A DNA stretch of 57,201 nt. Source: a virus. Below the pieces are notes generated by a model. It saw only the letters and a list, made by a program, of their open reading frames with translations. It was not told the DNA's origin and ran no database searches. This document shows, piece after piece, positions 559 through 54,786 of the stretch (position 1 is the stretch's first letter; every line of letters starts with the position of its first letter). The stretch covers positions 1 through 57,201 of the IMG/VR virus record IMGVR_UViG_3300042864_002256. The stretch is one strand, 5' to 3'. Both the position numbers and the translations under genes were made by a program.

Positions 559-1806
559 ATGCAAAATAATTCAAAAACTTTCTGCATCCTTCCTTGGATA
601 CACGCAGCAACCCTTACTGATGGTACAACACAACTTTGTTGTTTAAGTGAACCTTCACCACATAATCTTAATACAACTTCCTTAGATGATTATTGGAATT
701 CTGATTATTTAAAAAATGTCAGATTGAAAAAATTAAAAGGCGAAAAAGTTCAAGAATGTAATAGATGTTATCGAGAAGAAGAATTTGGATACCGCAGTCA
801 TAGAGTTGTAGAAAACAAATTGTGGGAAGAACGTTTAAAAGAAAATTTTCAAGAAAGAATTGATTCGACAAATTCAGATGGTGGTATTCCTGATTGTCCA
901 ATAACAATAGATTTAAGACTTTCAAATACCTGTAATTTACAATGCATTATGTGTCAACCAAGAGAATCTTCAAGATGGTTAAAATTAGCTGAACATTTAG
1001 CTGAAACTTTAGATGATGAAGAATTAAAAGCAGAATGGAAATACAAAAGAAATATCCAAGTTGATTTATTCGATTGGTATAAAAAAGAAGAATTTTGGGA
1101 AACAATGCGATTTATGATTCCTGATATTCAAGAAATTATTTTAGGTGGTGGTGAACCATTATTAATCGATCACCATGTTTCTTTCTTGGAAGAATGTGTT
1201 AGAGAAGACGCAGCAAAAAATATTTATATTCGTTATCATACAAATGCAACTGTATTCAATAAAAAATTAACTAATATTTGGAAAGAATTTAAAACCGTTG
1301 AACTTTGTGTTAGTTTAGATGGTATTGAAGAATTAGCGGAATATGTAAGATTTCCTAGTAAATGGAATCAAATAGAAAATAATATAAAACAATTCGATCA
1401 ATTACCAGATAATGTTATTTTAAAATTTAACTACTCTGTTCATGCGTTAAATATTCATGGAATTATTGATTTTATTGATTGGGTTGAAAACCAAAACTTC
1501 AATAAAAGAAATCAAATTTCAAATAAATTTCAAATTTTTGCTCACCCAAGTTGCGTTAATCATCCAGAATATTTGCATGTTAGCAACTTACCAGAAACTT
1601 TAAAAAAAGAAATTACTGAAAAATTTCAAAATAAAATAAAAAATTATCCAGATAATTATTTTGAAAAATATGATTCTATTTTTAGTATAATGAATTCACA
1701 ACCAGCAAAGCATTTTGAAAAATTAAAAAAATACATTAATGCATTAGATCAACTGAGAAATACCAAAATTGAAAATGTATTCAAAGAATTAAAGGATTAT
1801 CTATGA
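559..1806 (+). CDS. Radical SAM protein with twitch/SPASM-like cysteines
   Basis: About 415 residues from the ATG at 559; an earlier in-frame ATG at 514 lies inside the previous gene and is less likely. The radical SAM cluster motif CNLQCIMC (CxxxCxxC) is near residue 130 and GGGEP, a SAM-binding motif, is about 70 residues later. The N-terminus carries FCILPWIHA and cysteine pairs (LCC, CNRC) like those of twitch-domain radical SAM proteins in T4-like phages, where extra cysteines may hold an auxiliary cluster. Its stop overlaps the start of a second radical SAM gene. The substrate is not evident; peptide or sugar modification are possibilities. Confidence 0.85.
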   Translation: MQNNSKTFCILPWIHAATLTDGTTQLCCLSEPSPHNLNTTSLDDYWNSDYLKNVRLKKLKGEKVQECNRCYREEEFGYRSHRVVENKLWEERLKENFQERIDSTNSDGGIPDCPITIDLRLSNTCNLQCIMCQPRESSRWLKLAEHLAETLDDEELKAEWKYKRNIQVDLFDWYKKEEFWETMRFMIPDIQEIILGGGEPLLIDHHVSFLEECVREDAAKNIYIRYHTNATVFNKKLTNIWKEFKTVELCVSLDGIEELAEYVRFPSKWNQIENNIKQFDQLPDNVILKFNYSVHALNIHGIIDFIDWVENQNFNKRNQISNKFQIFAHPSCVNHPEYLHVSNLPETLKKEITEKFQNKIKNYPDNYFEKYDSIFSIMNSQPAKHFEKLKKYINALDQLRNTKIENVFKELKDYL

Positions 1807-2807
1807 CTTTATTTGTAGATGTAAATGGCGATTATGAAGATATTCATGGAGATAAAATTCATAGTCAACAATTAAATAAATTAAAAAATTGGTATTGTAC
1901 TGCTGGATTACGTCATCTTTATATTGATTTTGATGGTAATGTTTGGCGCGGCACTTGTGAACAAGATGGTGCATTAGGAAACGTATTTCGACCTGGAATG
2001 ATCTTCGATGATCAAAAAGAAAAATGGGGAACTTGGGCTGTTTGTAAAAAAGAAATTTGTGCATGTGGCGCTGATTTTAATTGTCCAAAAGTTAAATCAA
2101 TAGCATTTTTACCTGAAATTCAAGTTACAAGTTATTGGGATGATTTATCTATAAATTTCCCAGAATTAAAAAATAATCATAAAACAAAAAACCCACAATT
2201 GATTATGGACAGTTTTGCAAAAGAAGCAAAAACAATTGCTTGGGATTTAGGCAGAAGATGTAATTACAATTGTAGTTATTGCCCAAGTTCAGTACATAAT
2301 AATTTTGAAACTCATAAATCATTAGATAGTTTATTATTGGCTGAAAAAAATATCAATGACCATTGGCGTTATGATGAACGAATAAAATGGACATTTACTG
2401 GTGGTGAACCAACAACAAATAAAGATTTAATACCATTTTTACAATTTTTATATAATAAAGGCGATGCTTTACACGTTCAAACAAATGGATCAAGAACCGT
2501 TGATTATTATAAAAAACTATTTGAAATTTCTTCAATAGGAATTTCTGTTCATATGGAATTTGCTGATTCAAATCATATTTTAAAATTAACCGAAGAATTA
2601 TCTAAAATAGAAAATAATGAAGTTTTAGAAATAAGAATTATGCTTAAACAAGGGATGTTAAAAGATGTAAAAAAACTTTATGATAATTTAAAAATCTATA
2701 AAAATCACAGAATAAATGTAAATGTTGATTTACTTCATAATATGGAAGATAAAACGATAACACCGTATGAGGAAAAGGAACTAGAATGGTTAAAAAATCT
2801 CAGTTAA
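1803..2807 (+). CDS. Second radical SAM protein
   Basis: 334 residues, starting with ATGA overlapping the upstream stop, so the two radical SAM genes are translationally coupled. The cluster motif is CNYNCSYC in RRCNYNCSYCPSS near residue 150, followed by FTGGEPT. Before it is a cysteine-rich N-terminal part (TAGLRHLYIDFDGNVWRGTC, then CKKEICACGADFNC) resembling a SPASM/twitch auxiliary cluster region placed before the SAM core, an unusual order. Two tandem radical SAM genes beside a glycosyltransferase-like gene suggest a joint modification pathway, but the product is unknown. Confidence 0.85.
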   Translation: MTLFVDVNGDYEDIHGDKIHSQQLNKLKNWYCTAGLRHLYIDFDGNVWRGTCEQDGALGNVFRPGMIFDDQKEKWGTWAVCKKEICACGADFNCPKVKSIAFLPEIQVTSYWDDLSINFPELKNNHKTKNPQLIMDSFAKEAKTIAWDLGRRCNYNCSYCPSSVHNNFETHKSLDSLLLAEKNINDHWRYDERIKWTFTGGEPTTNKDLIPFLQFLYNKGDALHVQTNGSRTVDYYKKLFEISSIGISVHMEFADSNHILKLTEELSKIENNEVLEIRIMLKQGMLKDVKKLYDNLKIYKNHRINVNVDLLHNMEDKTITPYEEKELEWLKNLS

Positions 2808-2917
2808 AAAAACAAACAGAAAATATTTTAAAACAACATCCAGAATTTTTAAATAATCCTATAATAAAAGAAATAGGAAAATACTTAAATGAAAATAAAT
2901 TTCTACCTAACAAATAA
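2786..2917 (+). CDS. Small lysine-rich protein bridging two genes
   Basis: A 43-residue frame beginning MVKKSQLKKQ and ending NENKFLPNK. Its ATG sits inside the end of the preceding radical SAM gene and its stop inside the start of the next gene. A strong ribosome binding site (GAGGAAAAGGAA) precedes the ATG by a normal distance. It fills the only gap between neighbours, a pattern typical of true phage micro-genes. Predicted to be helical and basic; function unknown. Confidence 0.6.
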   Translation: MVKKSQLKKQTENILKQHPEFLNNPIIKEIGKYLNENKFLPNK

Positions 2918-3434
2918 TTTTTTATCTACACAAAAATTATTCAATACAGATTTAATGGATTATTTTTCTAATTGGGAATTAAATGAAAATAATCAAGATG
3001 ATTTTAGAAAAATTTATAATTTTGAAAATAATTGTTTAAAATTAATCACAGAAATAAACAAAGAAAAATTCCCTAAAACGATTAATAAAGAAAAATATCA
3101 TCGTAAAATTACAAATTGGAAAACGTGGGCACTTGAAAATAGTGGTCAACAAAATCAACATTCACTTATTGTTCCTATCGATTTCGATCATGATTTATTA
3201 AAATTACATAATACAATAATTGTTAAATCAACACCAATAAAAGAATTTATTGAATTTGTTCTTTATAAGAATTTTAATTTTAATTTTAAACAACTTACAA
3301 TCGATTATCAAGATTTTATTGAATTTAATAATAAAAAACAAAACAATTATCCAATTCAAACAATTAATGCAGAAGATTATTCACAATTTATCAATAATTA
3401 TTCTGAAGTAGAAAGTTGGTTTGAAAATGTATGA
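2889..3434 (+). CDS. Unknown 181-residue protein
   Basis: No recognised domain. Rich in Asn, Lys and Phe, with a region near residues 80-100 (HRKITNWKTWALENSGQQ) that looks structured. No membrane segment. The final codons overlap the following glycosyltransferase-like gene (ATGTATGA), indicating coupled translation within the radical SAM/glycosyltransferase operon. Function unknown; context suggests an accessory role in the same modification pathway. Confidence 0.75.
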   Translation: MKINFYLTNNFLSTQKLFNTDLMDYFSNWELNENNQDDFRKIYNFENNCLKLITEINKEKFPKTINKEKYHRKITNWKTWALENSGQQNQHSLIVPIDFDHDLLKLHNTIIVKSTPIKEFIEFVLYKNFNFNFKQLTIDYQDFIEFNNKKQNNYPIQTINAEDYSQFINNYSEVESWFENV

Positions 3435-4152
3435 TGTTTTTTATCTTTCTTATAAAGATCATAATGAAACAAATTTAAATCAATTAAAACAATTTGTTCC
3501 AATTGTTAAAAAAATTGAAAACATAAAAGGTATTTGGCAAGCACATAACTACTGTGCCAATCAAGCAAGAACAAAATTTTTCTTTGTTGTTGATGCTGAT
3601 TGTTATGTAAGAGAAAATATATTTGATACAAAAGGTGATGAAAATTATGTTCAAGTTTTTCGTAGCTTTAATCCTGTAAATGGATTAACATATGGTTGGG
3701 GCGGAATTAAATTATTCCCAACTAATTTAGTTAAAGAAACAAAAATACCAGAAAAATATTTGGATATGACTACAAGTTGGAATACAAAACCATTGGATAT
3801 TATTGCCAGTGAAAATCGATTTAATGTTGATGCCTTTTCTACTTGGAGAAGTGCTTATCGTGAAACTACTAAAATAAAATACTGGATTAATTGTTTATTA
3901 AATGAAAGCTGGAAAGAATTACAGTTTTTTTCTTGGATAAAAACAAAAGAACAATTTGATAAATTTTTATTTCAACAACAAGAACGATTAAATGTTTGGA
4001 GTGGTTTTGTTTATTCATTTCAAGATTATTCTGAATATTGCTTACAAGGCGCACAACAAGCGCTTAAAGATTATAATTTAGAAAATATTCATATGATTAA
4101 TGATAGAGATTATTTGGAAAGAAAATTTAATGAGATATATTTATTACGTTGA
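3427..4152 (+). CDS. GT-A-like glycosyltransferase
   Basis: 241 residues from ATG 3427 (a TTG at 3421 is an alternative). It shares a signature with the 37469-38314 protein: GI..AH..CA.QA followed by FFVVDADCY, where DAD (near residue 56) looks like the metal-binding DxD of GT-A glycosyltransferases, and later a WRSAYRE block. The fold assignment is inferred from this motif; the acceptor is unknown. It overlaps the upstream gene by 8 bases, and its own end contains the start of a 110-residue family gene. Placement after two radical SAM genes supports a glycan or peptide modification role. Confidence 0.65.
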   Translation: MYDVFYLSYKDHNETNLNQLKQFVPIVKKIENIKGIWQAHNYCANQARTKFFFVVDADCYVRENIFDTKGDENYVQVFRSFNPVNGLTYGWGGIKLFPTNLVKETKIPEKYLDMTTSWNTKPLDIIASENRFNVDAFSTWRSAYRETTKIKYWINCLLNESWKELQFFSWIKTKEQFDKFLFQQQERLNVWSGFVYSFQDYSEYCLQGAQQALKDYNLENIHMINDRDYLERKFNEIYLLR

Positions 4153-4462
4153 TGGTGAGAAATTTATAACGGATAGTTATGACGCAATCCTTGTTTCTGA
4201 AATTTCCTCTCCTGATGAAAATACACCTGCTTATGAAGTTTTAGAAACAGGTCAAAAACTTTGGTGTGAAAAAGGATGGCGCTGGCATCGATTAACAGGA
4301 CCAGCAAGAATTTGTTTTAACGGAAGAGATGAATTTTGGTTAAATGATAAACTATATGAAAATATTCATGCTTGGTTAAAAGATCATCCAAATCCCGATC
4401 TTTATTTTGATGCAATTGGTTTGAATGAAACGGAAAGAGTTTTATGGTTTTTACAAAATTAG
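4130..4462 (+). CDS. 110-residue repeat family protein, tail type A
   Basis: A well-conserved family member: YIYYVDGEKF at residues 3-12, ISSPDENTPA at 25-34, WCEKG at 45-49, HRLTGPA at 53-59, WLNDK at 70-74, DHPNPDLYF at 85-93, and the type A tail NETERVLWFLQN. The HRLTGPA unit with a following Gly and W(L/F)N(G/D)K resembles the MORN-like 'NGKxHRxxGPA' repeats of phage and giant-virus proteins of unknown role. It starts 23 bases inside the glycosyltransferase gene. First gene of cassette copy 1. Confidence 0.85.
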   Translation: MRYIYYVDGEKFITDSYDAILVSEISSPDENTPAYEVLETGQKLWCEKGWRWHRLTGPARICFNGRDEFWLNDKLYENIHAWLKDHPNPDLYFDAIGLNETERVLWFLQN

Positions 4463-4999: not shown

Positions 5000-5028
5000 T
5001 TGACAAGAACCGGAAAATTTTCTATTAT
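5000..5028 (+). promoter_or_regulatory. Sigma70-type promoter
   Basis: TTGACA at 5000-5005, a 17-base spacer ending GGAAAATTTTC, and TATTAT at 5023-5028: an essentially consensus host-type promoter for the gene at 5076. The GAAAATTTTC spacer element recurs in many promoters of this window. Confidence 0.85.
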
Positions 5029-5039
5029 CAATTCATCAA

Positions 5040-5051
5040 GACGGAAACGTC
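5040..5051 (+). promoter_or_regulatory. 5' leader hairpin with GAAA tetraloop
   Basis: GACG-GAAA-CGTC can form a perfect 4-bp stem with a GNRA tetraloop only a few bases after the expected transcription start and before AACAAGGAG. The same hairpin is at 8585-8596 on the other strand. Leader hairpins of this kind can stabilise mRNA; that role is inferred. Confidence 0.45.
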
Positions 5052-5075
5052 GCAACTGAACAAGGAGAATGAATT

Positions 5076-5429
5076 ATGGAACTTCGTTTTAATGCAACCG
5101 CTGTTGAACTGCTGAACCTTACTGCTGCTCGTGCACTTCGTTTCGATGCCCTTGAGCGCAAGCGCCAAAATGCAATTAACCTTAAAGTTCGCCCGCTGCA
5201 ATCGCAAGTTAAGACCGATTTTCAATCTGTTATTAAGCGCCGCGAAGTGAGCGAAAGCTTTACTGAAACAACAGTAAATGTTTCACGCGAAATTTTGAAC
5301 GCCCTTGGCGTTACATCGGTTCAAAAGGGTAAATTTGTTCTGAAGTTCTTCGGTGCAGGTTTTTATGAATTGCTGCCCGTTGCAGTGAGCGAAATTAAAG
5401 TTGGCGACGCGGTTGTAACCATTCGTTAA
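5076..5429 (+). CDS. Highly expressed early-type protein, unknown
   Basis: 117 residues (MELRFNATAVELLNLTAARA...), behind a consensus promoter, a leader hairpin, AAGGAGAATG and a strong terminator, so it is its own transcription unit. Base composition and codons (CTT, CTG, CGT, CGC, GCC) are clearly more GC-rich than the neighbours, suggesting adaptation for high expression or recent acquisition. The N-terminus is helical and Arg/Ala-rich; the C-terminal half has short beta-like stretches (GKFVLKFFGAGFYELLPV). No known domain recognised. Confidence 0.85.
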   Translation: MELRFNATAVELLNLTAARALRFDALERKRQNAINLKVRPLQSQVKTDFQSVIKRREVSESFTETTVNVSREILNALGVTSVQKGKFVLKFFGAGFYELLPVAVSEIKVGDAVVTIR

Positions 5430-8348: not shown

Positions 8349-8561
8349 TTACAATTTACGAACATCTACATAAAATGCGTTGATTTGCGGTGAAAAAATA
8401 ACATCAGTGACAATATAAATTTTACTAATATTGCTATATCGATCTAATACAATTTTTTCATTGATATATGGAATATGATTAGATTCATAACCAATATGTT
8501 TTGAGGTATCAAAACGATTGTTAATATCCTTAATGATTAAAACTTTAAATGTTTGATTCAT
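8349..8561 (-). CDS. Small unknown protein, early-type unit
   Basis: 70 residues starting MNQTFKVLIIKDINN, after GGAGAAAAATT. A longer in-frame start at 8636 would fall inside the promoter, so the ATG at 8561 is chosen. The sequence alternates beta-like segments (FKVLIIKD, KIVLDRYSNISKIYIVTDVIF, NAFYVDVRKL), suggesting a compact beta fold. It has its own promoter, leader hairpin and terminator. Function unknown. Confidence 0.75.
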   Translation of the reverse strand: MNQTFKVLIIKDINNRFDTSKHIGYESNHIPYINEKIVLDRYSNISKIYIVTDVIFSPQINAFYVDVRKL

Positions 8562-8584
8562 AATTTTTCTCCTTGTTCGGTTGC

Positions 8585-8596
8585 GACGTTTCCGTC
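8585..8596 (-). promoter_or_regulatory. 5' leader hairpin with GAAA tetraloop
   Basis: On the minus strand GACG-GAAA-CGTC, identical to the leader hairpin at 5040-5051 and in the same place between promoter and ribosome binding site. Confidence 0.45.
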
Positions 8597-8607
8597 TTGA
8601 TGAATTG

Positions 8608-8636
8608 ATAATAGAAAATTTTCTATTTATTGTCAA
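8608..8636 (-). promoter_or_regulatory. Sigma70-type promoter
   Basis: Minus strand: TTGACA, 17 bases containing AGAAAATTTTC, TATTAT. From the -10 through the leader it is nearly identical to the promoter at 5000-5028. Drives the 70-residue gene. Confidence 0.85.
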
Positions 8637-9569: not shown

Positions 9570-10115
9570 ATGACTTATGAAAATAAACAAGAACTTTATG
9601 AATTTGAAATTGCAGGCGCAAGTGGTGCTGCACCAAATGATGGATTTATCGATAATTTAAAATATCAACAAAGAATTGCATTGGAAAATATTGCTTGGCC
9701 TGCTGGAACTTTAGGATTGAGAAAATCAAGAGCTAATTTTCGTTGGACAAGATTAGGTAATGATGTAAATGCATTAGGCGCTAAAATAACATTTGTTGAT
9801 CCAGTTGATGCAACTTCTGCTTTACCCGCTACAATTTTTAAATTACAAATAATTGTACCAACTTGGGTTAGAACCTTAGATGAAAATAATTTAGGTGATG
9901 AATTATTTGGTATTGATGCAGTAAAACGTGTAATGGCTAGAGTATTAATTGAAACAAATACACAAAAAATTGAATGGATAAATGGTGGAACTGGCGGCGT
10001 AGGTGGGTTAGGAGAAAAAGGTCCAACTAATTCTATTGAAACAATTGGTTATGTTTATTCAACATTAAATGCAGCAGAAAGTGCAATTAGTGAAACATTA
10101 TTAGGATACGTCTAA
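9570..10115 (+). CDS. Probable virion structural protein, unknown
   Basis: 181 residues with the Gly/Ala-rich, evenly composed look of phage structural proteins (FEIAGASGAAPNDG, NFRWTRLGNDVNALGAKITFVDP, a GGTGGVGGLGEKG loop). It does not match tube, sheath, gp14 or capsid proteins that I can recall. Preceded by AAAGGTATATTAAC. Its last base overlaps the start of the next gene. Assignment as structural is inference from composition and from nearby tail genes. Confidence 0.55.
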   Translation: MTYENKQELYEFEIAGASGAAPNDGFIDNLKYQQRIALENIAWPAGTLGLRKSRANFRWTRLGNDVNALGAKITFVDPVDATSALPATIFKLQIIVPTWVRTLDENNLGDELFGIDAVKRVMARVLIETNTQKIEWINGGTGGVGGLGEKGPTNSIETIGYVYSTLNAAESAISETLLGYV

Positions 10116-10810
10116 TGAATAAATTATTAAAAGAATACTTAGAATTTATTGAAGAAACGCCGATTGAAGATATATCTCATGTTGGTAATCCAACAACTGC
10201 AACTAATTTTACAAGAAAAGAAATAGAAAATTTACAAAATATTTCTTATCAAGAAAAAATAAGAAATGCATTTAAAAATACGCCTTTTATTTTCGATATA
10301 GTTTTTGTTTTTAATAAAGATTTTGATGCATCAAAAGAAAATTCACATACAAATGCAGATAATTATCGTCAAAAACAAAATCAATCAACTGGTAATTTTA
10401 AAATTAATAATAAATTAATTAAACCAACAGAAAATATTACATTTGTTCTTAGAGGTAATTTATCACCTTCACAAAAATTACCTGTAACTCCTTGGATTTT
10501 AGCTCATAAAATCGGCCATGCAATTGAAAATAAAAATAAAAATTTGAAACAAATGTTTTTCAATTTAAAATGGGAAATTAGAGATTCTAAAGAATTTAAT
10601 ATTTTTAATTTCAAAACTTGGGATAACCAATTAGAAAATATTTTAGCCAATGGAGAATATATTTCTGAATTAATTGCATATTACTTGATTAAAGGTAATT
10701 TAACTCCAAATACAAATAATAAGGACATACTAATTATTTGTAATGAAATCACCAAAGAATTAGAAAATATTTTTACTAATTTAAAAGGGAAAATTATAAA
10801 TGAAGTTTAA
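10115..10810 (+). CDS. HKxxH protein, degenerate metallopeptidase-like (paralog 1)
   Basis: 231 residues. TPWILAHKIGHAIE looks like the zinc-binding helix of HExxH metallopeptidases (LxHExGHAx), but the catalytic Glu is Lys. A downstream ANGEYISELIAYYL could hold the third ligand Glu. The N-terminus (MNKLLKEYLEFIEETPIEDISHVGNP) is shared with the next large gene (about 45% identical by eye). Loss of the Glu in both copies suggests a non-catalytic or altered role. Start overlaps the upstream stop. Confidence 0.6.
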   Translation: MNKLLKEYLEFIEETPIEDISHVGNPTTATNFTRKEIENLQNISYQEKIRNAFKNTPFIFDIVFVFNKDFDASKENSHTNADNYRQKQNQSTGNFKINNKLIKPTENITFVLRGNLSPSQKLPVTPWILAHKIGHAIENKNKNLKQMFFNLKWEIRDSKEFNIFNFKTWDNQLENILANGEYISELIAYYLIKGNLTPNTNNKDILIICNEITKELENIFTNLKGKIINEV

Positions 10811-10895
10811 AGATTTATACTTAAAATTAAAAAGATTTATTAAAAGAAAATTAAGAAATCGTCAATTAAGAAAACGTGATCCGTTTATATATTAA
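10800..10895 (+). CDS. Small basic protein
   Basis: 31 residues, MKFKDLYLKLKRFIKRKLRN and then RQLRKRDPFIY, with about a third Lys/Arg. Its ATG overlaps the end of the preceding gene and the stop is 10 bases before the next start, filling the gap between paralogs. No clear Shine-Dalgarno beyond AAAGGGAAA. A nucleic-acid-binding peptide is possible; the coding call is moderate. Confidence 0.45.
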   Translation: MKFKDLYLKLKRFIKRKLRNRQLRKRDPFIY

Positions 10896-10905
10896 AGGTT
10901 ACATT

Positions 10906-11655
10906 ATGAATAAATTATTAAAAGAATACTTAGATTTTATAAAAGAAACGCCAATTGAAGATATTTCTCATATTGGTAATCCAAATACAGCAACTAATTT
11001 TACTAAACCAGAAATTAAAATGTTGCAAACAGAAAAATATCAAAAACGATTAAAAGATGCATTTAAAAACACACCTTTTGTTTTTGACATAGTTTTTGAT
11101 TATCATAAAGATTTTGATGCTAGTTTTGATGATGATAATTATAGTACAGGAAGTTTTATACCTGACAATAAAATTATTGATGCTTATCATCAAGATCGTT
11201 ATAGCGACTCAATAAAAGGCAAACCGGGAGTTATAACGTTTGTAAGTCAAGGAAATTTATCACCTGAAAATAGAATACCAATGACTCCTTGGATATTAGC
11301 TCATAAAATTGCTCATGCGATTGATCAAAATGAAATTTATTTTAATTTTATTGATAAAAATAGTCTTAATTACAAAATTTTTAATTTTATTGATGATAAT
11401 AGTATAGATGAAGAAATTTATAAAAATTTATTTTCTTTTAAATCATGGAAAACAATAGGATTTGTAAAATTAATTACAAGTGGTGAATTATATACTGAAT
11501 TAGTAACACTTTATTTGATTACTGGTAAAATTCAACCAAATAAAACTGGAAATGAATCATTTGATAATATGATTGAACAATATTGTTTAAAATTTACAAC
11601 ATTATTAGAAAATTTGTTTAAATCATTAGAAGGTAAAATATTAACTGAAGTTTAA
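10906..11655 (+). CDS. HKxxH protein, degenerate metallopeptidase-like (paralog 2)
   Basis: 249 residues from ATG 10906 after AAAGGTTACATT. It repeats the first paralog: MNKLLKEYLDFIKETPIEDISHIGNP, ATNFTKPEI, TPFVFDIVF, GNLSPENRIPMTPWILAHKIAHAID, SGELYTELVTLYL. The putative zinc helix reads HKIAH, again with Lys for the catalytic Glu. Tandem duplication with divergence in the middle. Function unknown. Confidence 0.6.
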   Translation: MNKLLKEYLDFIKETPIEDISHIGNPNTATNFTKPEIKMLQTEKYQKRLKDAFKNTPFVFDIVFDYHKDFDASFDDDNYSTGSFIPDNKIIDAYHQDRYSDSIKGKPGVITFVSQGNLSPENRIPMTPWILAHKIAHAIDQNEIYFNFIDKNSLNYKIFNFIDDNSIDEEIYKNLFSFKSWKTIGFVKLITSGELYTELVTLYLITGKIQPNKTGNESFDNMIEQYCLKFTTLLENLFKSLEGKILTEV

Positions 11656-11665
11656 AGGATTTTAA

Positions 11666-13126
11666 ATGAGTGAAATAATTTGGGGGATTACAAATAGTAA
11701 TCATGACGCTAGTTTAGCAGTTTCTTATAATGGAGAAATTGTTTTTGCTGCACAAGCAGAACGATATTCAAGAATTAAAAATGATCATTATCTTAATGAA
11801 GATATTATTAAAGAAGCATTGGTTTATGGACAACCAAAAAATATAATACTTCATGAAACACCTTGGAAAAAACGATTGAGAATTTTGCGATCTGGTAATT
11901 GGAAACATTTATTAGAATATAATCCTTGGAAAAACTTAAACTTAGAAACAAAATATCAAACAGAAAATCATCATCATTCACACGCAGCAGCAGGTTTTTA
12001 TTCGTCTAATTTTAAAGATGCCTTAATTGTAGTATTTGATGCTATTGGTGAAAACCAATCACAATCGCTTTATAAAGGCTCAGAACAGGGTCTTGAGCTT
12101 TTAGAGATGATACCCTACCCAAACTCATTAGGATTGTTCTACAGCGCTTGTACGCAAGCTGTAGGGCTTAAACCAAATGAAGATGAATATATCTTTATGG
12201 GAATGGCTGCTTATGGTAATAAAAATTTATTAGAAAAAAGAATTCACCGAGATTTTATTGAACATTGGAGTCCCCAAAATCCAAAACTAAAATTAAAATT
12301 TAATCCCCATCGTGGAATAAAAATAAATCTAAGAAAAGAAGACTATTTTAATTTTGCTGCAACTGTTCAATCAATTTTAGAAAGCTTTATCGTTGATTAT
12401 ATAAAAGCAAAAATTAAAAAATATAATTGTAGAAATATTGTTTTTGCTGGTGGTGTTGCTTTAAATTGTGTGCTAAATTCAAAATTAGCTAATTTACCAG
12501 ATGTAAATAATTTTCATGTTTTTGGTAATCCAGGTGATTCAGGAAATGCAATAGGAGCAATTGCTGCTTTTAACAAACAAAAATTTAAATTAGATAATCT
12601 TTTTTTAGGACATAAAATCGATAAAGATTATCCAATGCAAGAATTATTAGATGAGTTACATAATAATAAAATTGTTGGTATTGCAAATGGAAAAGCAGAA
12701 TTTGGACCAAGGGCATTGGGTAATAGAAGTATCCTTGCTGATCCAAGAGGAAAAGAAATGCAAAATCAATTGAATCAATTGAAAAATCGTCAAAATTTTC
12801 GCCCATTTGCTCCTGTTATTTTAGAAGATTATTTTAATCATTGCTTTGATACAAATTTAAAGGAAAGCCCTTTTATGCAATATGTGGTTAAATGCAAGCA
12901 ACCCAATGATTATCCTGCAATTTGTCATATTGATAATACTTCAAGAGTGCAAACCGTAAACCCAGAAAATAATCCAAATCTTTATGAATTACTTAAAAAT
13001 TGGTTTAAACAAACAGGTTGCCCAATGTTGGTAAATACATCGCTAAATGTTAAAGGTGAACCTATTGTTAACAACGAAAAAGACGCAAAACGATTTGAAG
13101 AAATAAATAAAATAAAAGTGCTTTAA
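11666..13126 (+). CDS. NodU/CmcH-type carbamoyltransferase
   Basis: 486 residues. The N-terminal ATPase-like domain shows GITNSNHDASLAV, NHHHSHAAAGF (101-111), FDAIGENQS, MGMAAYG and FAGGVALNC. The C-terminal domain has EFGPRALGNRSILADPR, the RPFAPV block and NTSLNVKGEPIV. The family transfers a carbamoyl group from carbamoyl phosphate, via carbamoyl adenylate, to a hydroxyl, as in Nod factors and antibiotics. Relatives in phages have been linked to hypermodified DNA bases; which acceptor applies is unknown. It is shorter than usual (about 570-600). The 12050-12190 segment is visibly less AT-rich. Confidence 0.88.
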   Translation: MSEIIWGITNSNHDASLAVSYNGEIVFAAQAERYSRIKNDHYLNEDIIKEALVYGQPKNIILHETPWKKRLRILRSGNWKHLLEYNPWKNLNLETKYQTENHHHSHAAAGFYSSNFKDALIVVFDAIGENQSQSLYKGSEQGLELLEMIPYPNSLGLFYSACTQAVGLKPNEDEYIFMGMAAYGNKNLLEKRIHRDFIEHWSPQNPKLKLKFNPHRGIKINLRKEDYFNFAATVQSILESFIVDYIKAKIKKYNCRNIVFAGGVALNCVLNSKLANLPDVNNFHVFGNPGDSGNAIGAIAAFNKQKFKLDNLFLGHKIDKDYPMQELLDELHNNKIVGIANGKAEFGPRALGNRSILADPRGKEMQNQLNQLKNRQNFRPFAPVILEDYFNHCFDTNLKESPFMQYVVKCKQPNDYPAICHIDNTSRVQTVNPENNPNLYELLKNWFKQTGCPMLVNTSLNVKGEPIVNNEKDAKRFEEINKIKVL

Positions 13127-13517: not shown

Positions 13518-14510
13518 ATGATTAATATTTTTGATATACATAATAAAATTATTAATAAAGACACTCACGATCTTATTGTAAAATTAAAACATATAAGTTA
13601 TTTATTGCCAGAAATAAATGTTTTAGAAAAAGAAAATAAAGCTGATTTTATTTGGTTGGATATTGACACTCTAATTTATACAAAATTATATTCAAATAAA
13701 AAATATATTATCAATAATACTGATACCGCATCCAAACAAGATTATACTATGTTACCAAATAATTGTTATGTTCTTGATGTAAATCCTGAAAATATTTTCA
13801 CTAATATACATTATTTTAATTCTTGGGGAGAAAAAACAATTAAAGATAATTTAATTGTTGATAATTCTAAAGCTAATATACGTTTTTTAGCTAGTAACAG
13901 AAAACCGCGCCCTCATCGTAATTCTTTTGCTAAATTATGTTATTTATTTCAAAATAATTTATACCATAGTTTTTATGAAGACCCAAATAGAACAAACAAT
14001 GACGAAAGATATTTTGAAAACTCAAAATATTCTAATATTTTTAAAAATTATATAAAATTACCAGTAAAAACAAATGATACATATTATAATATGACACCAA
14101 TTGATTTAATAGAAAAAATGAAATTAACACAATTAACTTTAATATTTGAAACAAATTATAATGTTTATTATTCAACAGTAACAGAAAAAACTTTTAGAGA
14201 AATAGTATCAAAAAGACCTTTTATTTTGTTTGGCCCTTATAATGCTTTACAAAATCTAAAGAATATCGGATTTAAAACATTCGAAACAATTTGGGATGAA
14301 AGTTATGATAATCTAAAAAATCCTACCGAAAGATTTGATAAAACTATTGATCTATTATTAGAATTAAATTCTATGAATGGTAATGATTTTAATAACTTGA
14401 TATTAAAAACTAAAACTATCTGTGAGTATAATTATCATCATGCACAAAAATTACATAAAATTAATTTACAAAATTTAAAAGATAAATTATTATTATGGAA
14501 AAATACATAA
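13518..14510 (+). CDS. GT10-like glycosyltransferase
   Basis: 330 residues. The C-terminal third has YSTVTEKTFREIVSKRPFILFGP, which resembles the (V/I)TEKxxR donor-binding motif of alpha-1,3-fucosyltransferases (GT10) and similar GT-B enzymes, followed by NIGFKTFETIWDESYDN. A middle FLASNRKPRPHRN may be the nucleotide-site start. The sugar and acceptor are unknown. It is inserted between a family gene and spacer repeat 2, splitting the cassette. Start ATG 4 bases after the upstream stop. Confidence 0.6.
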   Translation: MINIFDIHNKIINKDTHDLIVKLKHISYLLPEINVLEKENKADFIWLDIDTLIYTKLYSNKKYIINNTDTASKQDYTMLPNNCYVLDVNPENIFTNIHYFNSWGEKTIKDNLIVDNSKANIRFLASNRKPRPHRNSFAKLCYLFQNNLYHSFYEDPNRTNNDERYFENSKYSNIFKNYIKLPVKTNDTYYNMTPIDLIEKMKLTQLTLIFETNYNVYYSTVTEKTFREIVSKRPFILFGPYNALQNLKNIGFKTFETIWDESYDNLKNPTERFDKTIDLLLELNSMNGNDFNNLILKTKTICEYNYHHAQKLHKINLQNLKDKLLLWKNT

Positions 14511-37136: not shown

Positions 37137-37472
37137 TTAATTTTGTAAAAACCACAGGACTTTATCAGTTTCTGTAAAAACTCCAATGGCATCAAAATAA
37201 AGATCGGGATTTGGATGTTCATTAATCCATTCTTTAACAGTGTAATAGCGTTTATCATATAACCAAAATTGTTCTTTTTTGTCACCCGTAATTACTGCTG
37301 GTCCAGTTAACCGATGATGAATACCACCTATATTATACCATCTCTTATGATCATTTTCTAAGTTTTCAAAAGCAGGCGTTTTTTCATTTGGTGACGATAA
37401 TTCTTCCCAAGGAATGTCGTTAATATTATCAGTTGTAAATTTTTCACCATCAATATAATAAATATATTTCAC
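37137..37472 (-). CDS. 110-residue repeat family protein, tail type A
   Basis: 111 residues: YIYYIDGEKFTTDN, LSSPNEKTPAFENL, KRWYNIGG, HHRLTGPAVI, FWLYDKRYYTV, HPNPDLYFDAIGVFTETDKV and LWFLQN. WYNIG replaces WCxKG, as in members closer to the YxNGxxHR repeat. Start overlaps the glycosyltransferase stop (ATGA), as for the 4130 copy after the other glycosyltransferase. Confidence 0.85.
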   Translation of the reverse strand: MKYIYYIDGEKFTTDNINDIPWEELSSPNEKTPAFENLENDHKRWYNIGGIHHRLTGPAVITGDKKEQFWLYDKRYYTVKEWINEHPNPDLYFDAIGVFTETDKVLWFLQN

Positions 37473-38314
37473 TTCATTAATCCATTATAAGTTGGTTTAA
37501 ATTGGCAATTTCTAATAAATAAAGAAGTTTTTGAATCTAATATTGGTAATTTACAGTTTAATAATTTTTCAGAATTTTCAACTGGAATATTTTTACCGGC
37601 CCAATATTCAAAAATAACCAATAAACGATCATAATCATTAATCAATAATATATCTTTATTATTAATATAAAAATCGGTTAAAGCAGCATGAGCACCCAAT
37701 AAAGAAAATTTTCCATATTGTAAATGATTTCCCATTGTTAACCATAATTTTATTCTTATTCCATTATCACCTAAATCATTTAAATTTAATTTAGATTGTA
37801 AATTACCATCTGGTGTTAATGTTAATTTTGCAACTTCACGATACGCACTTCTAAAAGCATGATAATCTGAACTGGCAGATTTTGTAATAGCTAAAATATC
37901 AGAACAAATCCAATAAGAATTATTATAAAAAAAATCAGTTGTTGTTTCATGTGAAACTTTATTTAAAAATTGTTTTCGCCACAGTTTAACACTTCCATTT
38001 CCATAAATTAATCCAGTTATATCATTAATTGTCCTAAAACTATGAATACAAAATAATTGTTTTGGGTTGTCTAAAATAACATGCGCGTGTTGTAATTGAT
38101 CTAAAGGATAATTATCACCATCAACGGTCCAAAACCAATCATCCGCTTGATCTGCACATTTTTTATGTGCATTATGAATACCTTTTATACCATGCACTCG
38201 ATTAATATTAGGTACTAAAGATTTAATTGCTTTAAAATTATCATCAGCATTGGGTTCATCATAAGATATGAAAAACGCAGGATAATTTTGAATATGAATT
38301 GTACTTCCTAACAT
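37469..38314 (-). CDS. GT-A-like glycosyltransferase
   Basis: 281 residues. INRVHGIKGIHNAHKKCADQ and WFWTVDGDNY (DGD near 65-67, likely metal-binding DxD), then HSFRTINDITGLIYGNGSVKLW and YHAFRSAYREVAKL. The same blocks in the same order occur in the 3427 gene, so they are paralogs at opposite ends of the window. Both are followed by an overlapping family gene, suggesting that glycosyltransferase and family gene moved or were duplicated as a pair. Acceptor unknown. Confidence 0.65.
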   Translation of the reverse strand: MLGSTIHIQNYPAFFISYDEPNADDNFKAIKSLVPNINRVHGIKGIHNAHKKCADQADDWFWTVDGDNYPLDQLQHAHVILDNPKQLFCIHSFRTINDITGLIYGNGSVKLWRKQFLNKVSHETTTDFFYNNSYWICSDILAITKSASSDYHAFRSAYREVAKLTLTPDGNLQSKLNLNDLGDNGIRIKLWLTMGNHLQYGKFSLLGAHAALTDFYINNKDILLINDYDRLLVIFEYWAGKNIPVENSEKLLNCKLPILDSKTSLFIRNCQFKPTYNGLMK

Positions 38315-40451: not shown

Positions 40452-40484
40452 AAATTAAGGAAGAAATTAATCTTCCTTAATAAA
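40452..40484 (-). terminator. Terminator after ThyX
   Basis: Minus strand TTAAGGAAGA-TTAA-TTTCTTCCTTAA followed by TTTTTT; the stem includes the end of the thyX reading frame. Confidence 0.75.
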
Positions 40485-41879
40485 TTTTTCTTTCCATTCA
40501 ACGTATTCTCGTTCACTCATTCCTAAAGTTTGTGCAAATTCCTTATTAGATAAATTTCCTTGTAATTTATCTAATGCAAAATTAAAACTCATATTAAATT
40601 CATTACTGGTTTTAATTACTGTATTAAGTAATTCTTGATCCATACGACTTAATTTACTTGCATTTTTAATATAATCTTCCCAAGCTTCAATTGTAATCGG
40701 CCAAAGAGGGCGAATTAATTCTAAAATTGCTCTTGCATATTCTTGAATTTCCCATTGGGCATGTGAATCTTCACGCAAACGAATAAAATGAAGTAAATTA
40801 TGTAAATCCATTTTCCAATAAAGTTCGGTATAATGATTTACAGTTAAAACACCGCGCGCTAATTCTCTAGCTAAACCAGGATAATTTTCATCTAAATCAG
40901 AAAAATCATGATTATTTCCAAGTAAATTATTATAAACTTGTAAACTTGTTTCTGCGTTTTTCTTAAAAATATTTTTAATTCTTTGTGCAATTCCAGGTAA
41001 AAATTCACCAGAACGACCTTGTTTATTAGTTAAACTTTGTGGTTTAATTTGTGGTAAATCAGGAACATATACTTCATCTGTTAATTCTGAATAACGACCA
41101 GAAACTTCATTAAGACAATTATGAACAACAAGTCCATTAGCAACGAAATTATGATATGGTCCTTTAACCGTTAAATCAAAAACTTCTTCAATACCAACAT
41201 ATTTTATTGATTTTACTTTAATAAAATCAGAATTATTTTCATTTTCAACAGCAAACAATACTGTATCATCATACTTAACAACAACAGGAACATGTTCTGA
41301 GTTAACTTCAACTTCAAGATTTAAAGCATTTTTTAATTGTTGCCAACCATTATTTGTTAAACATTCATGATCTGCGGTTAATTTTATTGTAAAATCATTT
41401 TCCAAAGTTAATTCAAAAACTTCTTTATTACCATTACTCCAAATATTAACAATTTCAGTTGATAAAATTTCGTTAGTTTCTTCATTTAACATTTTAACAA
41501 CTGTATTTTGATTTACATTATTTTTCCAGTTATCATAAAATTGTTTTATAAAAATTCTTGAATTATCGGCCATATAAAGTTGGTTATCACCAGTTAAACA
41601 AGCTGTGCGATGACGAACTAATTGACGCATAACAAAAATTGGCAGTTTAATGTGGAAAATAGCTTCGTTCATTTCCAATGGAGAAGTATGAGAATGACGA
41701 ACAAGGTAACGAATTAAGCCACGACTATCTCTTGATGATTTGGTGCCTTTAGAATAGCTCACACGGGCAGCACGAACGATAGATTCGTCTGTGCCCATGT
41801 GATCAACTAAACCAACAAATCCATTATCCAAAACACTGTGATAATTCTTGTCATTTTTAATTTCCTCAATATTAGCCAT
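40467..41879 (-). CDS. thyX: Flavin-dependent thymidylate synthase ThyX interrupted by a mini-intein
   Basis: 470-residue precursor from ATG 41879 (ATGGCTAA overlap with the upstream stop). Extein parts: DESIVRAARVSY, RYLVRHSHTSPLE, then RQLVRHRTA (to residue 93), and after the intein CLNEVSGRYSELTDEVYVPD and the C-terminal NLLHFIRLR block. ThyX makes dTMP from dUMP with FAD, folate and NADPH. The intein (94-254) splits the RHRxxS signature at the active site, so splicing is needed for activity. Without it the protein is about 309 residues. Belongs to the replication/nucleotide genes. Confidence 0.93.
   Translation of the reverse strand: MANIEEIKNDKNYHSVLDNGFVGLVDHMGTDESIVRAARVSYSKGTKSSRDSRGLIRYLVRHSHTSPLEMNEAIFHIKLPIFVMRQLVRHRTACLTGDNQLYMADNSRIFIKQFYDNWKNNVNQNTVVKMLNEETNEILSTEIVNIWSNGNKEVFELTLENDFTIKLTADHECLTNNGWQQLKNALNLEVEVNSEHVPVVVKYDDTVLFAVENENNSDFIKVKSIKYVGIEEVFDLTVKGPYHNFVANGLVVHNCLNEVSGRYSELTDEVYVPDLPQIKPQSLTNKQGRSGEFLPGIAQRIKNIFKKNAETSLQVYNNLLGNNHDFSDLDENYPGLARELARGVLTVNHYTELYWKMDLHNLLHFIRLREDSHAQWEIQEYARAILELIRPLWPITIEAWEDYIKNASKLSRMDQELLNTVIKTSNEFNMSFNFALDKLQGNLSNKEFAQTLGMSEREYVEWKEKFIKED
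41118..41600 (-). mobile_element. Mini-intein in ThyX
   Basis: 161 residues. It begins with Cys (CLTGDNQLYM, block A), has TADHECLT (block B TxxH), and ends KGPYHNFVANGLVVHN followed by Cys (blocks F and G: HN|C). The missing endonuclease domain makes it a mini-intein. Insertion falls in the conserved RHRTA|(S/C) motif, a known hot spot for inteins in ThyX. Confidence 0.93.
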
Positions 41880-42897
41880 TATTTTCCCCGCTAATTTGTT
41901 CCATACGAGTTGGAACAACTGTTTCTTTTGCTATTGCATCAAACGCATCTTTTGTGATATTACCAGAAAACAAATCAGCCAAAGCATTAACCATTTTTGG
42001 ATTGGGTTCACCTTCACTAATTGCTGCTTTTGGTAAACCAGTTGGGTGATTATTTTTATTCATCAATTCCATAATTTGATGGGCAGTTAATGGTTGTTCT
42101 TTTGTTGGTGTATTAATTGCGCCTAAATCTTTTTGCGATAATCCAGTAACAGGATTTGGTTGATAATATTCTTGTTCATTAACTTGATCAATTTTTCGTG
42201 TATTATTTGATGCTAAATCAATTTCAACATCTTTCGATACAACTGAATTTTCTAAACTTTCACGAATATGTGATTTTGCTGGGTCTAACGCAGGAACAAT
42301 TGCATAAGCTTGTTGACGTTTTAAAAATGCCTGATGATCTAAATCTTCTGCTTGATTTAATAAAAATCTTGCTTGATTCATTTTAGTTTCTTCGTTTGCA
42401 TTTTTAATATTCATTTCATAAATATTATCTGTTTTCAATGCGTCTTTGTTTGCATTGATATTTTTTAATATTTCATTTGGATCAATTTTTGTAATTAATT
42501 TTCTTTTAAGTAATGTTTCAGCTAAATCTTTATCTAATCTCCCCATTTCAACTAAAAGTTCAGCTAAATTATGTGGCATTCCTGGTCTTGGAAGCATTTC
42601 AATCATTTCAACATTCATTTTTTGAATAACATTTTTAATATGAAGTTCAGCAATCAAAGAATGCGGAGCGCCATTAAATCGAATAGTTCCTAAATAATCA
42701 CCTAAATTTTCTGTATTTTGTCCTTGATCTGAATATAAGGCTTCTTTAATTGCGCCAGCATATCGATCATTCAATGCATCTAAATTAACAGCTAAACATT
42801 TATATGGTTCATTTGGTACTTGAAGGAAAAGAATTGCTAATCTATTATCTGAATTAATAACTCTACCTATATGTCTTGTAATTTTTAAATCACTCAT
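41872..42897 (-). CDS. Conserved-looking unknown 341-residue protein
   Basis: N-terminal domain (about 1-90): RHIGRVINSDNRLAILFLQVP, YKCLAVNLDALNDRYAGAIKEAL, LGDYLGTIRFNGAPHSL. Middle and C-terminal parts are helical and polar (LLNQAEDLDHQAFLKRQQAYAIV; LTAHQIMELMNKNNHPTG). The N-terminal look is that of a T4-like phage structural or scaffold-type protein, but I cannot name it. Overlaps thyX at its end and the 42894 gene at its start. Confidence 0.6.
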   Translation of the reverse strand: MSDLKITRHIGRVINSDNRLAILFLQVPNEPYKCLAVNLDALNDRYAGAIKEALYSDQGQNTENLGDYLGTIRFNGAPHSLIAELHIKNVIQKMNVEMIEMLPRPGMPHNLAELLVEMGRLDKDLAETLLKRKLITKIDPNEILKNINANKDALKTDNIYEMNIKNANEETKMNQARFLLNQAEDLDHQAFLKRQQAYAIVPALDPAKSHIRESLENSVVSKDVEIDLASNNTRKIDQVNEQEYYQPNPVTGLSQKDLGAINTPTKEQPLTAHQIMELMNKNNHPTGLPKAAISEGEPNPKMVNALADLFSGNITKDAFDAIAKETVVPTRMEQISGENNG

Positions 42898-53044: not shown

Positions 53045-53073
53045 AATATAGAAAATTTTTTATAATTTGTCAA
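53045..53073 (-). promoter_or_regulatory. Sigma70-type promoter
   Basis: Minus strand: TTGACA, 17 bases with AAAAAATTTTC, TATATT. It overlaps the region just before the divergent radical SAM gene. Confidence 0.8.
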
Positions 53074-53090
53074 GACATTTAAATAATAAC

Positions 53091-54041
53091 ATGTGGAATA
53101 ATATTAAATCACTTCATGTTGAAACAAGTAGTTTTTGCAATGCTAGTTGTGTTCAATGTGGAAGAAATCAAAATGGCGGACCAATAAATGATAAATTAAT
53201 TCCAAGTAATTTATCATTTGATATTTTTAAAAAAACTATTAGTCAAATGCAGTTAGAAACAATTACTTTTTGTGGTAATTATGGCGATCCAATTGCTAAC
53301 CCTCATTTAATTGAACAAATAAAAATAACAAGAGAATTATTTCCCAATTGTTGGATTGGTATTCATACCAATGGGTCGATTAGAAATGAAAATTGGTGGG
53401 AAGATTTGGCACAATCAATTGGAAATCGTGGCGCTGTTATTTTTGGAATTGATGGATTAAAAGATACCTTGCCAATTTACAGAAGAAATTGCGACTTTGA
53501 TAAAGTAATAGAAAACGCAAAAACTGTTATAAAAAACAATTGCGAAGCAAGATGGGCGTTTATTGTTTTTAAACATAATCAACATCAAATTGAATCAGCA
53601 AGAAATTTATCCATTGACTTAGGATTTAAAAAATTCGTTGTTAAAAATACTCATAGATTTTCAGAAGATAAATTTCCTATTTTTGATAATGAAAAAAATA
53701 CAATTGGCTATTTAGAATTACCAACAATTGAATTACCAAATAATTTTAAAGAACGAGAATTTAGTTGCCAAAGTTTAGAAAAACAAGAATTATATCTTGA
53801 CAGTTGGAATAGAATTTTTCCTTGTTGTTGGATGGGATTAAGTTTAGACAAAAGATTTTCTTTTTCCAATGAAGAATTACAAGAATTAAATGTAGAAAAT
53901 AATTCTATTGAACAAATTGTAAATGGAAATGTTTTTAAAAAAATTCAAGAACAATTTTCAATTAGCAAAATTTGCCAAAAATATTGTGGTAAAAGAGTTT
54001 TTGAACGTCAATTTATAGGTGATAATAATGCAACCAAATAG
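53091..54041 (+). CDS. Third radical SAM protein
   Basis: 316 residues from ATG 53091; an upstream TTG at 53067 is a possible but weaker start. LHVETSSFCNASCVQCGRNQ has the CxxxCxxC cluster motif, FCGNYGDPIANP replaces GGEP, and HTNGS follows. C-terminal cysteines (REFSCQS, IFPCCWMG, ICQKYCGK) suggest a SPASM/twitch auxiliary cluster. It overlaps the neck protein gene, hinting at late expression. Substrate unknown. Confidence 0.85.
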   Translation: MWNNIKSLHVETSSFCNASCVQCGRNQNGGPINDKLIPSNLSFDIFKKTISQMQLETITFCGNYGDPIANPHLIEQIKITRELFPNCWIGIHTNGSIRNENWWEDLAQSIGNRGAVIFGIDGLKDTLPIYRRNCDFDKVIENAKTVIKNNCEARWAFIVFKHNQHQIESARNLSIDLGFKKFVVKNTHRFSEDKFPIFDNEKNTIGYLELPTIELPNNFKEREFSCQSLEKQELYLDSWNRIFPCCWMGLSLDKRFSFSNEELQELNVENNSIEQIVNGNVFKKIQEQFSISKICQKYCGKRVFERQFIGDNNATK

Positions 54042-54786
54042 AAATAACTTTAAAAAAGAAATTCAACTTATGTTGGGTTTGGGTATGATTGATTTAGAAG
54101 CTGATCCTGAACATTTAGAATTAGCAACGGTTGTAACAATTGACAAATATCGTCAAAGAAGTAATAATTCAATGCAAGATGTTTATATTAATTTAGAAAT
54201 ACAACGAGAACAATATGATTATCAATTGGATAATTCTATCCAATTAATTCGTCAAGTTTATCGTCGTGGTGCTGGTAGTGCAGGTGGTGCAAGTGCAACT
54301 GATCCATTTAGTTTAGCTTGGACCAATAACATTTATATGACAAGCAATCCTGGCGCAATGGGAACTGGCGGAACTGGTACATTGGCAACTTATGATTATG
54401 CAATGCAGTATCAAGAATTAGTTGGTAGATTATTTGGGAAAGAAGTTGTTTATCGCTGGGACCATAATACTCATATATTGAGTTTAGACAGAAAATTTTT
54501 AGCAAATGAAAATATTTTAATATGGGCATTTGGTCAAAAACCAGATGAAATTTTATTTCAAGATGTTTATGCTCGTTCTTGGTTGAGAGATTATGCGGTT
54601 GCTACATTAAAAGTTATAATTGGGGAAGCTAGAAGTAAATTTCAATCTTTAGCTGGTCCACAAGGCGGAATAACATTAAATGGTGATAGTTTAAAAAGTG
54701 AAGGATTTGCCGCACAAGAGCGTTTAGAAGCGCAATTACATGCTATTGTTGATCAAAATGAAGGATATGGATTTGTAATTGGATAG
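54028..54786 (+). CDS. T4 gp13-like neck protein
   Basis: 252 residues from ATG 54028. The C-terminus SWLRDYAVATLKVIIGEARSK...GGITLNGDSLKSEGFAAQERLEAQL...YGFVIG follows the gp13 pattern (RWVKDYATALAK...LPGGVTxxGxxL...E...FGILVG). The N-terminal LMLGLGMIDLEADPEHLELA and INLEIQREQYDYQLDNSIQLIRQVYRR also fit. gp13 closes the head-tail neck. Start overlaps the radical SAM gene by 14 bases; a terminator follows. Confidence 0.75.
   Translation: MQPNRNNFKKEIQLMLGLGMIDLEADPEHLELATVVTIDKYRQRSNNSMQDVYINLEIQREQYDYQLDNSIQLIRQVYRRGAGSAGGASATDPFSLAWTNNIYMTSNPGAMGTGGTGTLATYDYAMQYQELVGRLFGKEVVYRWDHNTHILSLDRKFLANENILIWAFGQKPDEILFQDVYARSWLRDYAVATLKVIIGEARSKFQSLAGPQGGITLNGDSLKSEGFAAQERLEAQLHAIVDQNEGYGFVIG

Follow-up and report, generated by a model that had tools for sequence, protein, structure and literature searches.

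The stretch of DNA analyzed here, a 57.2-kb IMG/VR virus record of 27% G+C (the window), carries five open reading frames (ORFs) at positions 559-4152, some 2 kb ahead of the tail tube gene: two radical SAM proteins (A and B), a 43-residue micro-ORF, a 181-residue orphan protein and a glycosyltransferase-like protein (GT). The genes overlap end to end, as the first-pass annotation had described, by 4 nt (A/B), 22 nt (B/micro-ORF), 29 nt (micro-ORF/orphan) and 8 nt (orphan/GT). That annotation closed the cluster at 4152; all ORFs within this extent are indeed coupled, but GT is itself overlapped by 23 nt by the following gene, and the coupled set runs on to 4462. A third radical SAM gene, proposed to be coupled to the neck gene at 54028, does overlap that gene, by 14 nt. 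The clamp loader, tail tube, RNA ligase/tail-fibre attachment and neck genes identify the phage as T4-like. The features referred to below are:

559-1806, + strand: radical SAM protein A, a member of the N_Twi_rSAM family with its twitch domain ahead of the SAM core (match to NF033640)
1803-2807, + strand: radical SAM protein B, with a permuted N-terminal auxiliary cysteine domain (Pfam Radical_SAM match and AlphaFold2 model)
1827-2099, + strand: auxiliary cysteine domain of B (Cys 32, 52, 81, 86 and 88), homologous to a C-terminal domain elsewhere in the B family
2786-2917, + strand: micro-ORF of 43 aa, Lys-rich, no Cys
2889-3434, + strand: orphan protein of 181 aa, relatives in the same contig only
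3427-4152, + strand: predicted GT-A-fold glycosyltransferase-like enzyme, DxD at residues 56-58 (HHalign, model and fold matches)
4130-4462, + strand: next coupled gene; its family numbers about 22 ORFs across the window (motif YYxDGEKF...HRLTGPAR)
11666-13126, + strand: NodU/Nol-like carbamoyltransferase (phrog_1601, 338 bits)
13518-14510, + strand: c24-family protein (E = 8e-30); the family recurs beside A/B in phages and Bdellovibrionota (L132, L133, L135)
37469-38314, - strand: second GT-family member (hmmsearch E = 3e-59)
53067-54041 (likely start 53091), + strand: third radical SAM/SPASM-type protein
54028-54786: neck gene, head-tail adaptor Ad2

A 35.7-kb contig from metagenome 3300042330 (L136), 99.98% identical to the first 8.8-10 kb of the window, reaches further upstream and has a second A gene and an additional GT-family gene ahead of the point at which the window starts.

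Proteins encoded by the cluster

A matches NF033640 over the full length of the profile (1-398 of 398) with 368.3 bits against a cut-off of 170, and contains Pfam Radical_SAM (residues 121-279) and SPASM (residues 9-71) domains, both above cut-off. The CxxxCxxC cysteines (125, 129 and 132) and the extra cysteines at 9, 27, 67 and 70 are 100% conserved among 125-152 aligned relatives. The name of the NF033640 family states no function, and none was found in the portions of the literature that were available; a PDB sequence search with A alone as query returned no match.

B is a member of the radical SAM superfamily by its score against PF04055 (49.5 bits; cut-off 29.5), its CxxxCxxC motif (C153, C157 and C160), its GGE motif (G200, G201 and E202) and its fold, the AlphaFold2 model (pLDDT 86, pTM 0.87) being a radical SAM barrel that matches QueE with Z 13.2. 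It passes none of the curated radical SAM subfamily cut-offs, scoring 45.7 against 180 for Viperin (NF038283), and 45.1 against 260 (TIGR03963) and 24.4 against 206 (TIGR03365) for QueE. Foldseek matches, at 11-18% identity, include sugar/nucleoside enzymes (BlsE, DesII and SpeY) as well as peptide maturases (SkfB and SuiB), so that the fold of B leaves the substrate class undecided. Both radical SAM proteins bear extra cysteine sets, as first annotated, presumably as ligands of an auxiliary iron-sulphur cluster. The placing of the cysteine-rich part before the SAM core was singled out as unusual in the second protein; this order is true of B, but A has it too, and in NF033640 it is the norm. 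A homology between the twitch domain of A and the auxiliary domain of B was considered and is not claimed, the HHalign probabilities being only 9% and 0.8%.

Residues 1-132 of the GT model (pLDDT 87.5) adopt a GT-A/nucleotidyltransferase fold with the DxD motif formed by D56 and D58. The fold matches glycosyltransferases, including B4GALNT1 (Z 10.9), WrtF and SunS, with Z of about 11, and matches the nucleotidyltransferases MobA and IspD equally (Z of about 11); glycosyltransferase activity is thus a prediction. GT scores under the Pfam cut-off for glycosyltransferase family 2 (PF00535; 13.9 bits vs. 23.3), and its profile found no match in a PDB sequence search. HHalign links it to a recurrent phage family with 99.9% probability, and in its relatives D56 and D58 are near-invariant and A39/H40 and Y89/G90 invariant.

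The micro-ORF is preceded by a good Shine-Dalgarno-like sequence, GAGGAAAAGGA. At a stop rate of 8.3% per codon a frame of 43 codons stays open by chance with P = 0.024, which lends the micro-ORF moderate support by length; the 181-codon frame of the orphan (P = 1.5e-7) is far beyond chance. None of the first 122 loci contained a relative of the micro-ORF, which also lacks cysteines; it is a poor candidate for a RiPP precursor, and such a peptide may be encoded elsewhere. The orphan found no match in NCBIfam, Pfam, PHROGs or phage records, nor in the loci gathered here, whether by HMMER or by HHalign to 59 families of neighbouring genes, and a scan of viral contigs returned its own contig only. 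By eye it had been suspected to be a homologue of c4, a family that follows B in related clusters, but c4 was absent from its best matches.

The auxiliary domain of B

The unusual order of B amounts to a domain permutation, not to a new sort of cysteine domain. An HMM trained solely on the C-terminal tails of other B proteins detects the domain at the N-terminus of the window protein (hmmsearch, 63.9 bits, E = 1.7e-19), and profile-profile alignment of the N- and C-terminal domains gives 99.6% (HHalign, E = 2.3e-24). Core and domain HMMs of the family both match the window protein, with the domain placed before the core, and Cys 32, 52, 81, 86 and 88 are invariant across 8 proteins of this N-type. 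Pfam SPASM (PF13186) has no match in window B, in L057 or in the stand-alone domain of L111, and the term SPASM-like therefore rests on the cysteine pattern and on the position of the domain in the C-type proteins.

In a census of 201 B cores from the first set of viral-contig loci, among the matches listed, the domain follows the core in 162 (C-type), precedes it in 14 (N-type; the window and a few near-copies included) and is encoded in 11 by a separate downstream gene that overlaps the end of the core gene; the remaining 14 cores were cut short or unassigned. A second scan brought the N-type to 39 non-redundant rows. An unrooted tree of 136 rows requires one change for the N-type (support 99/89; found in all 200 bootstrap trees), and in a quick unrooted tree of 89 rows that included bacterial proteins a single branch parts N from C (SH-aLRT 99). 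An A-B fusion protein (L115), which its A core had artefactually placed in the first large tree, was omitted from the second. Since N- and C-types fall on opposite sides of one branch, one swap is enough, and a single such event is supported. Its direction, on which the unrooted trees are silent, was probably from C to N, judging by other SPASM proteins. Tandem B-B pairs, among them C-type beside N-type with overlapping ends (L008, L161, L168 and L232), could represent the arrangement from which the permutation arose via duplication. A full-text literature search of partial coverage found no report of a permuted B-type auxiliary domain, and the permutation is likely to be new. The three arrangements amount to a natural experiment on how the domain cooperates with the SAM barrel, and on whether it can work as a subunit of its own.

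Relatives in phages and bacteria

Relatives were gathered with a DNA pattern for the SAM motif of B, which yielded at least 119 stretches from viral contigs. Among the matches listed, 91 of the 115 loci with B also have A, which lies directly upstream of B 70 times and is fused to it in one ORF (L115:230-2332), while B lies directly upstream of another B 40 times; because the loci were selected on the B motif, the association of A with B is independent of the search. With equal flanks, the GT family occurs in 17/36 N-type and 20/38 C-type phage loci (p = 0.82), with no sign of a link of GT specific to N-type B. A tblastn search with window GT found nothing among 50,697 phage records. The closest relatives among the matches listed (L014, L032 and L062) keep the order GT-GT-A-A-B with overlapping genes, and there B leads straight to c4 without a micro-ORF. 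Longer stretches of the same contigs (L148, L146 and L145, respectively) show the full module: two GT8-like genes, GT, GT, A, A, N-type B, c4 and an Asp hydroxylase gene. Looser forms of this module are found in L149 and L160. Pairwise dN/dS values for B, A and the two GTs among the three contigs range from 0.03 to 0.13, with dS near saturation in several pairs; the A, B and GT families are under purifying selection in these relatives.

Several other genes recur near the clusters. GT8-like proteins and a probable methyltransferase are so named from inspection of the sequence, not by family match. The others encode an aspartyl/asparaginyl-hydroxylase-like protein, an SDR-like protein whose Pfam score is under the cut-off, a nitroreductase, and radical SAM proteins that match a B12 domain weakly.

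N-type B is also found in Bdellovibrionota metagenome-assembled genomes, on contigs of up to 937 kb, and on one alphaproteobacterial contig. In a sample of 192 Bdellovibrionota genomes, in a survey weighted towards N-type relatives, 10 had a match, 7 of these reaching into the N-terminal domain. One locus has A-A-N-type B after two GT2 genes (L128), and in another A and B, the latter in both types, neighbour a group 1 glycosyltransferase gene and a polysaccharide-type ABC-2 exporter with its ATPase (L234). C-type or mixed loci place the A/B genes near those for UDPG dehydrogenase, GT2 and PMT (L133) or for a DegT sugar aminotransferase and a methyltransferase (L130). At five further loci (L124, L126, L127, L235 and L236) N-type B sits among unrelated genes with no clear glycan setting. 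Taken together, the bacterial neighbourhoods lean towards a glycan pathway, short of proof, and the Bdellovibrionota copies provide a cellular context where one might look for the product.

Possible roles of the cassette and known systems

Several points about the cluster are established: the catalytic motifs are intact, the folds are assigned, the genes are conserved and co-occur, their relatives are under purifying selection, and the auxiliary domain of B is permuted. A sporadic distribution without co-occurrence, the outcome that the first-pass annotation had set against its proposal of a biosynthetic pathway for a modified sugar, base or peptide, was looked for and not found: A and B occur together in most loci and GT in about half. 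A shared pathway is therefore well supported, although the substrate class is not decisively narrowed.

We favour, at a probability of roughly 45%, the tailoring of a surface or virion glycan. A and B would act as 5'-deoxyadenosyl-radical enzymes, each with its extra cysteine domain ahead of the SAM core, one after the other on the same substrate, probably a sugar, nucleotide-borne or already within a glycan. Candidate chemistries are dehydrogenation, epimerisation, deamination or C-C chemistry. The GT-A enzyme may then add the product to, or extend it on, a host surface polysaccharide or a virion glycan, perhaps blocking superinfection or altering adsorption. Stepwise sugar tailoring and transfer fits the presence in the same genome of two radical enzymes, GT, further GT-family genes, the c24-family gene and the carbamoyltransferase gene at 11666-13126, whose product scores 134.7 bits against NodU, under the curated cut-off, and may be linked to the A/B pathway. 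The modelled fold of B, near the sugar/nucleoside tailoring enzymes BlsE, DesII and SpeY, also favours glycan tailoring, as does the pairing of glycosyltransferases with radical SAM cassettes in pelagimyophage host-recognition clusters (PMC7029224). Against it stand the roughly half of loci that lack the GT family in their flanks, the several bacterial N-type B genes among unrelated genes, and the fold matches of B to SkfB and SuiB and of the GT model to MobA and IspD.

SPASM/twitch radical SAM enzymes are often peptide or protein modifiers, and A and B might instead modify a peptide or a virion protein, as RiPP-like maturases or tail-protein modifiers, with GT glycosylating the same protein. 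The SkfB and SuiB matches, the tail tube gene about 2 kb beyond the cluster, the recurrent aspartyl-hydroxylase-like genes and the coupling of the micro-ORF to B are consistent with this. However, the micro-ORF has neither cysteines nor relatives, the closest clusters do without it, no precursor was found and the bacterial contexts tilt to glycan genes; we regard a peptide or protein substrate as less likely than a glycan. A loose linkage of A and B as auxiliary genes travelling as a mobile cassette, with GT and the orphan as neighbours outside any shared pathway, is rather doubtful. The incomplete association with GT, the variable gene order and accompanying families, and the orphan and micro genes private to the window phage would suit such a history, but the end-to-end overlaps, the A-B fusion, the strong purifying selection and the GT-GT-A-A-B order kept in three diverged contigs argue otherwise.

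A hypermodified DNA base as the product is highly improbable. The idea draws on the NodU-like carbamoyltransferase and the thymidylate synthase gene of the window, and has a precedent in a phage-type carbamoyltransferase known to make 5-carbamoyloxymethylcytosine (PMC8670742). In that pathway, however, the carbamoyltransferase is paired with a dCMP hydroxymethylase of the PF00303 type, the type tied to modified contigs, and glycosyltransferases beside carbamoyltransferases were found in unmodified contigs (PMC8670742). The window synthase is an intein-bearing ThyX, the only type among the genes scanned in what is a genome fragment, and this weakens the base-modification route, as does the score of B far under the QueE cut-offs.

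Returning to glycan tailoring, a bolder extension can be put forward only tentatively: that the auxiliary Fe-S domain of B can move between settings (at the C-terminus, at the N-terminus after a single ancestral permutation, or as a subunit of its own) and serves an undescribed radical-SAM glycan-tailoring pathway of environmental phages and Bdellovibrionota. Marine T4-like phages carry radical SAM genes as some of their most conspicuous unexplained cargo, and here this cargo is narrowed to a small, conserved and testable unit.

Among known systems, Viperin, QueE and MoaA are among the best matches of the B core by both sequence and fold, but B lies far under every curated cut-off and has an added cysteine domain. 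With the SPASM/twitch enzymes (BlsE, DesII, SpeY, SkfB and SuiB) it shares a SAM barrel and an extra cysteine domain expected to bind an auxiliary cluster; unlike theirs, the extra domain of window B precedes the core and goes undetected by Pfam SPASM. A resembles NF033640 throughout, with twitch cysteines preceding the SAM core, and the family extends to distant members (about 24% identity) in viruses like Vibrio phage KVP40, but in the window A forms a coupled set with GT and a permuted B. The cassettes of marine T4-like phages are also close: the available portions of two papers, which list the genes, report a genome with as many as 12 radical SAM genes (PMC5332604) and pelagimyophage host-recognition clusters that combine glycosyltransferases with radical SAM cassettes (PMC7029224). 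Gene kinds, glycosyltransferase combination and phage type are the same, whereas those portions yielded no mention of the A-B pairing, of a permuted or split auxiliary domain or of copies in Bdellovibrionota (PMC5332604, PMC7029224). The cluster is thus real and conserved, and its kind is known in part: phages with radical SAM cassettes close to glycosyltransferases have been reported before, and the permutation of B is likely a new structural variant.

A family of short paralogues

A single family of about 22 ORFs, carried on both strands, is spread across positions 4130-55421 of the window; its members are roughly 110 aa long and share the pattern YYxDGEKF...EISSPDE...HRLTGPAR. Such a burst of paralogues of about 110 aa within a 57-kb phage fragment is unusual. 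One member, together with a gene of the c24 family, which recurs beside the radical SAM A and B genes in phages and Bdellovibrionota, follows a NodU/Nol-like carbamoyltransferase (11666-13126).

Other repeats and an intein

The adjacent genes at 10115-10810 and 10876-11655 are also paralogues of each other, with 85% DNA identity across 124 nt. At 5076-5429 lies a gene for 117 aa with a G+C content of 44.6%, against 27% for the genome, and no relatives of it were found in the fetched loci, the same contig excepted; the approximately 79 bp immediately ahead of it (5000-5078) recur as an inverted copy (91%) at 8559-8636. On the minus strand, 40467-41918 encodes a ThyX thymidylate synthase into which an intein is inserted, and the models for N-terminal and for C-terminal splicing both exceed the cut-off.

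Extended radical SAM relatives

Among the fetched loci, L043 (604-3045), L066, L076 and L068 encode fusion proteins: at the N terminus an additional domain, some 450 aa long, precedes an N-type B protein, that is, one with its auxiliary cysteine domain before the SAM core. The N_Twi-type radical SAM proteins of L007 (159-2648) and L010 (3581-6088) reach about 830 aa each; the L007 protein matches PP-loop ATPases weakly (16.1 bits, under the cut-off), and its C-terminal half contains an SGGADS motif.
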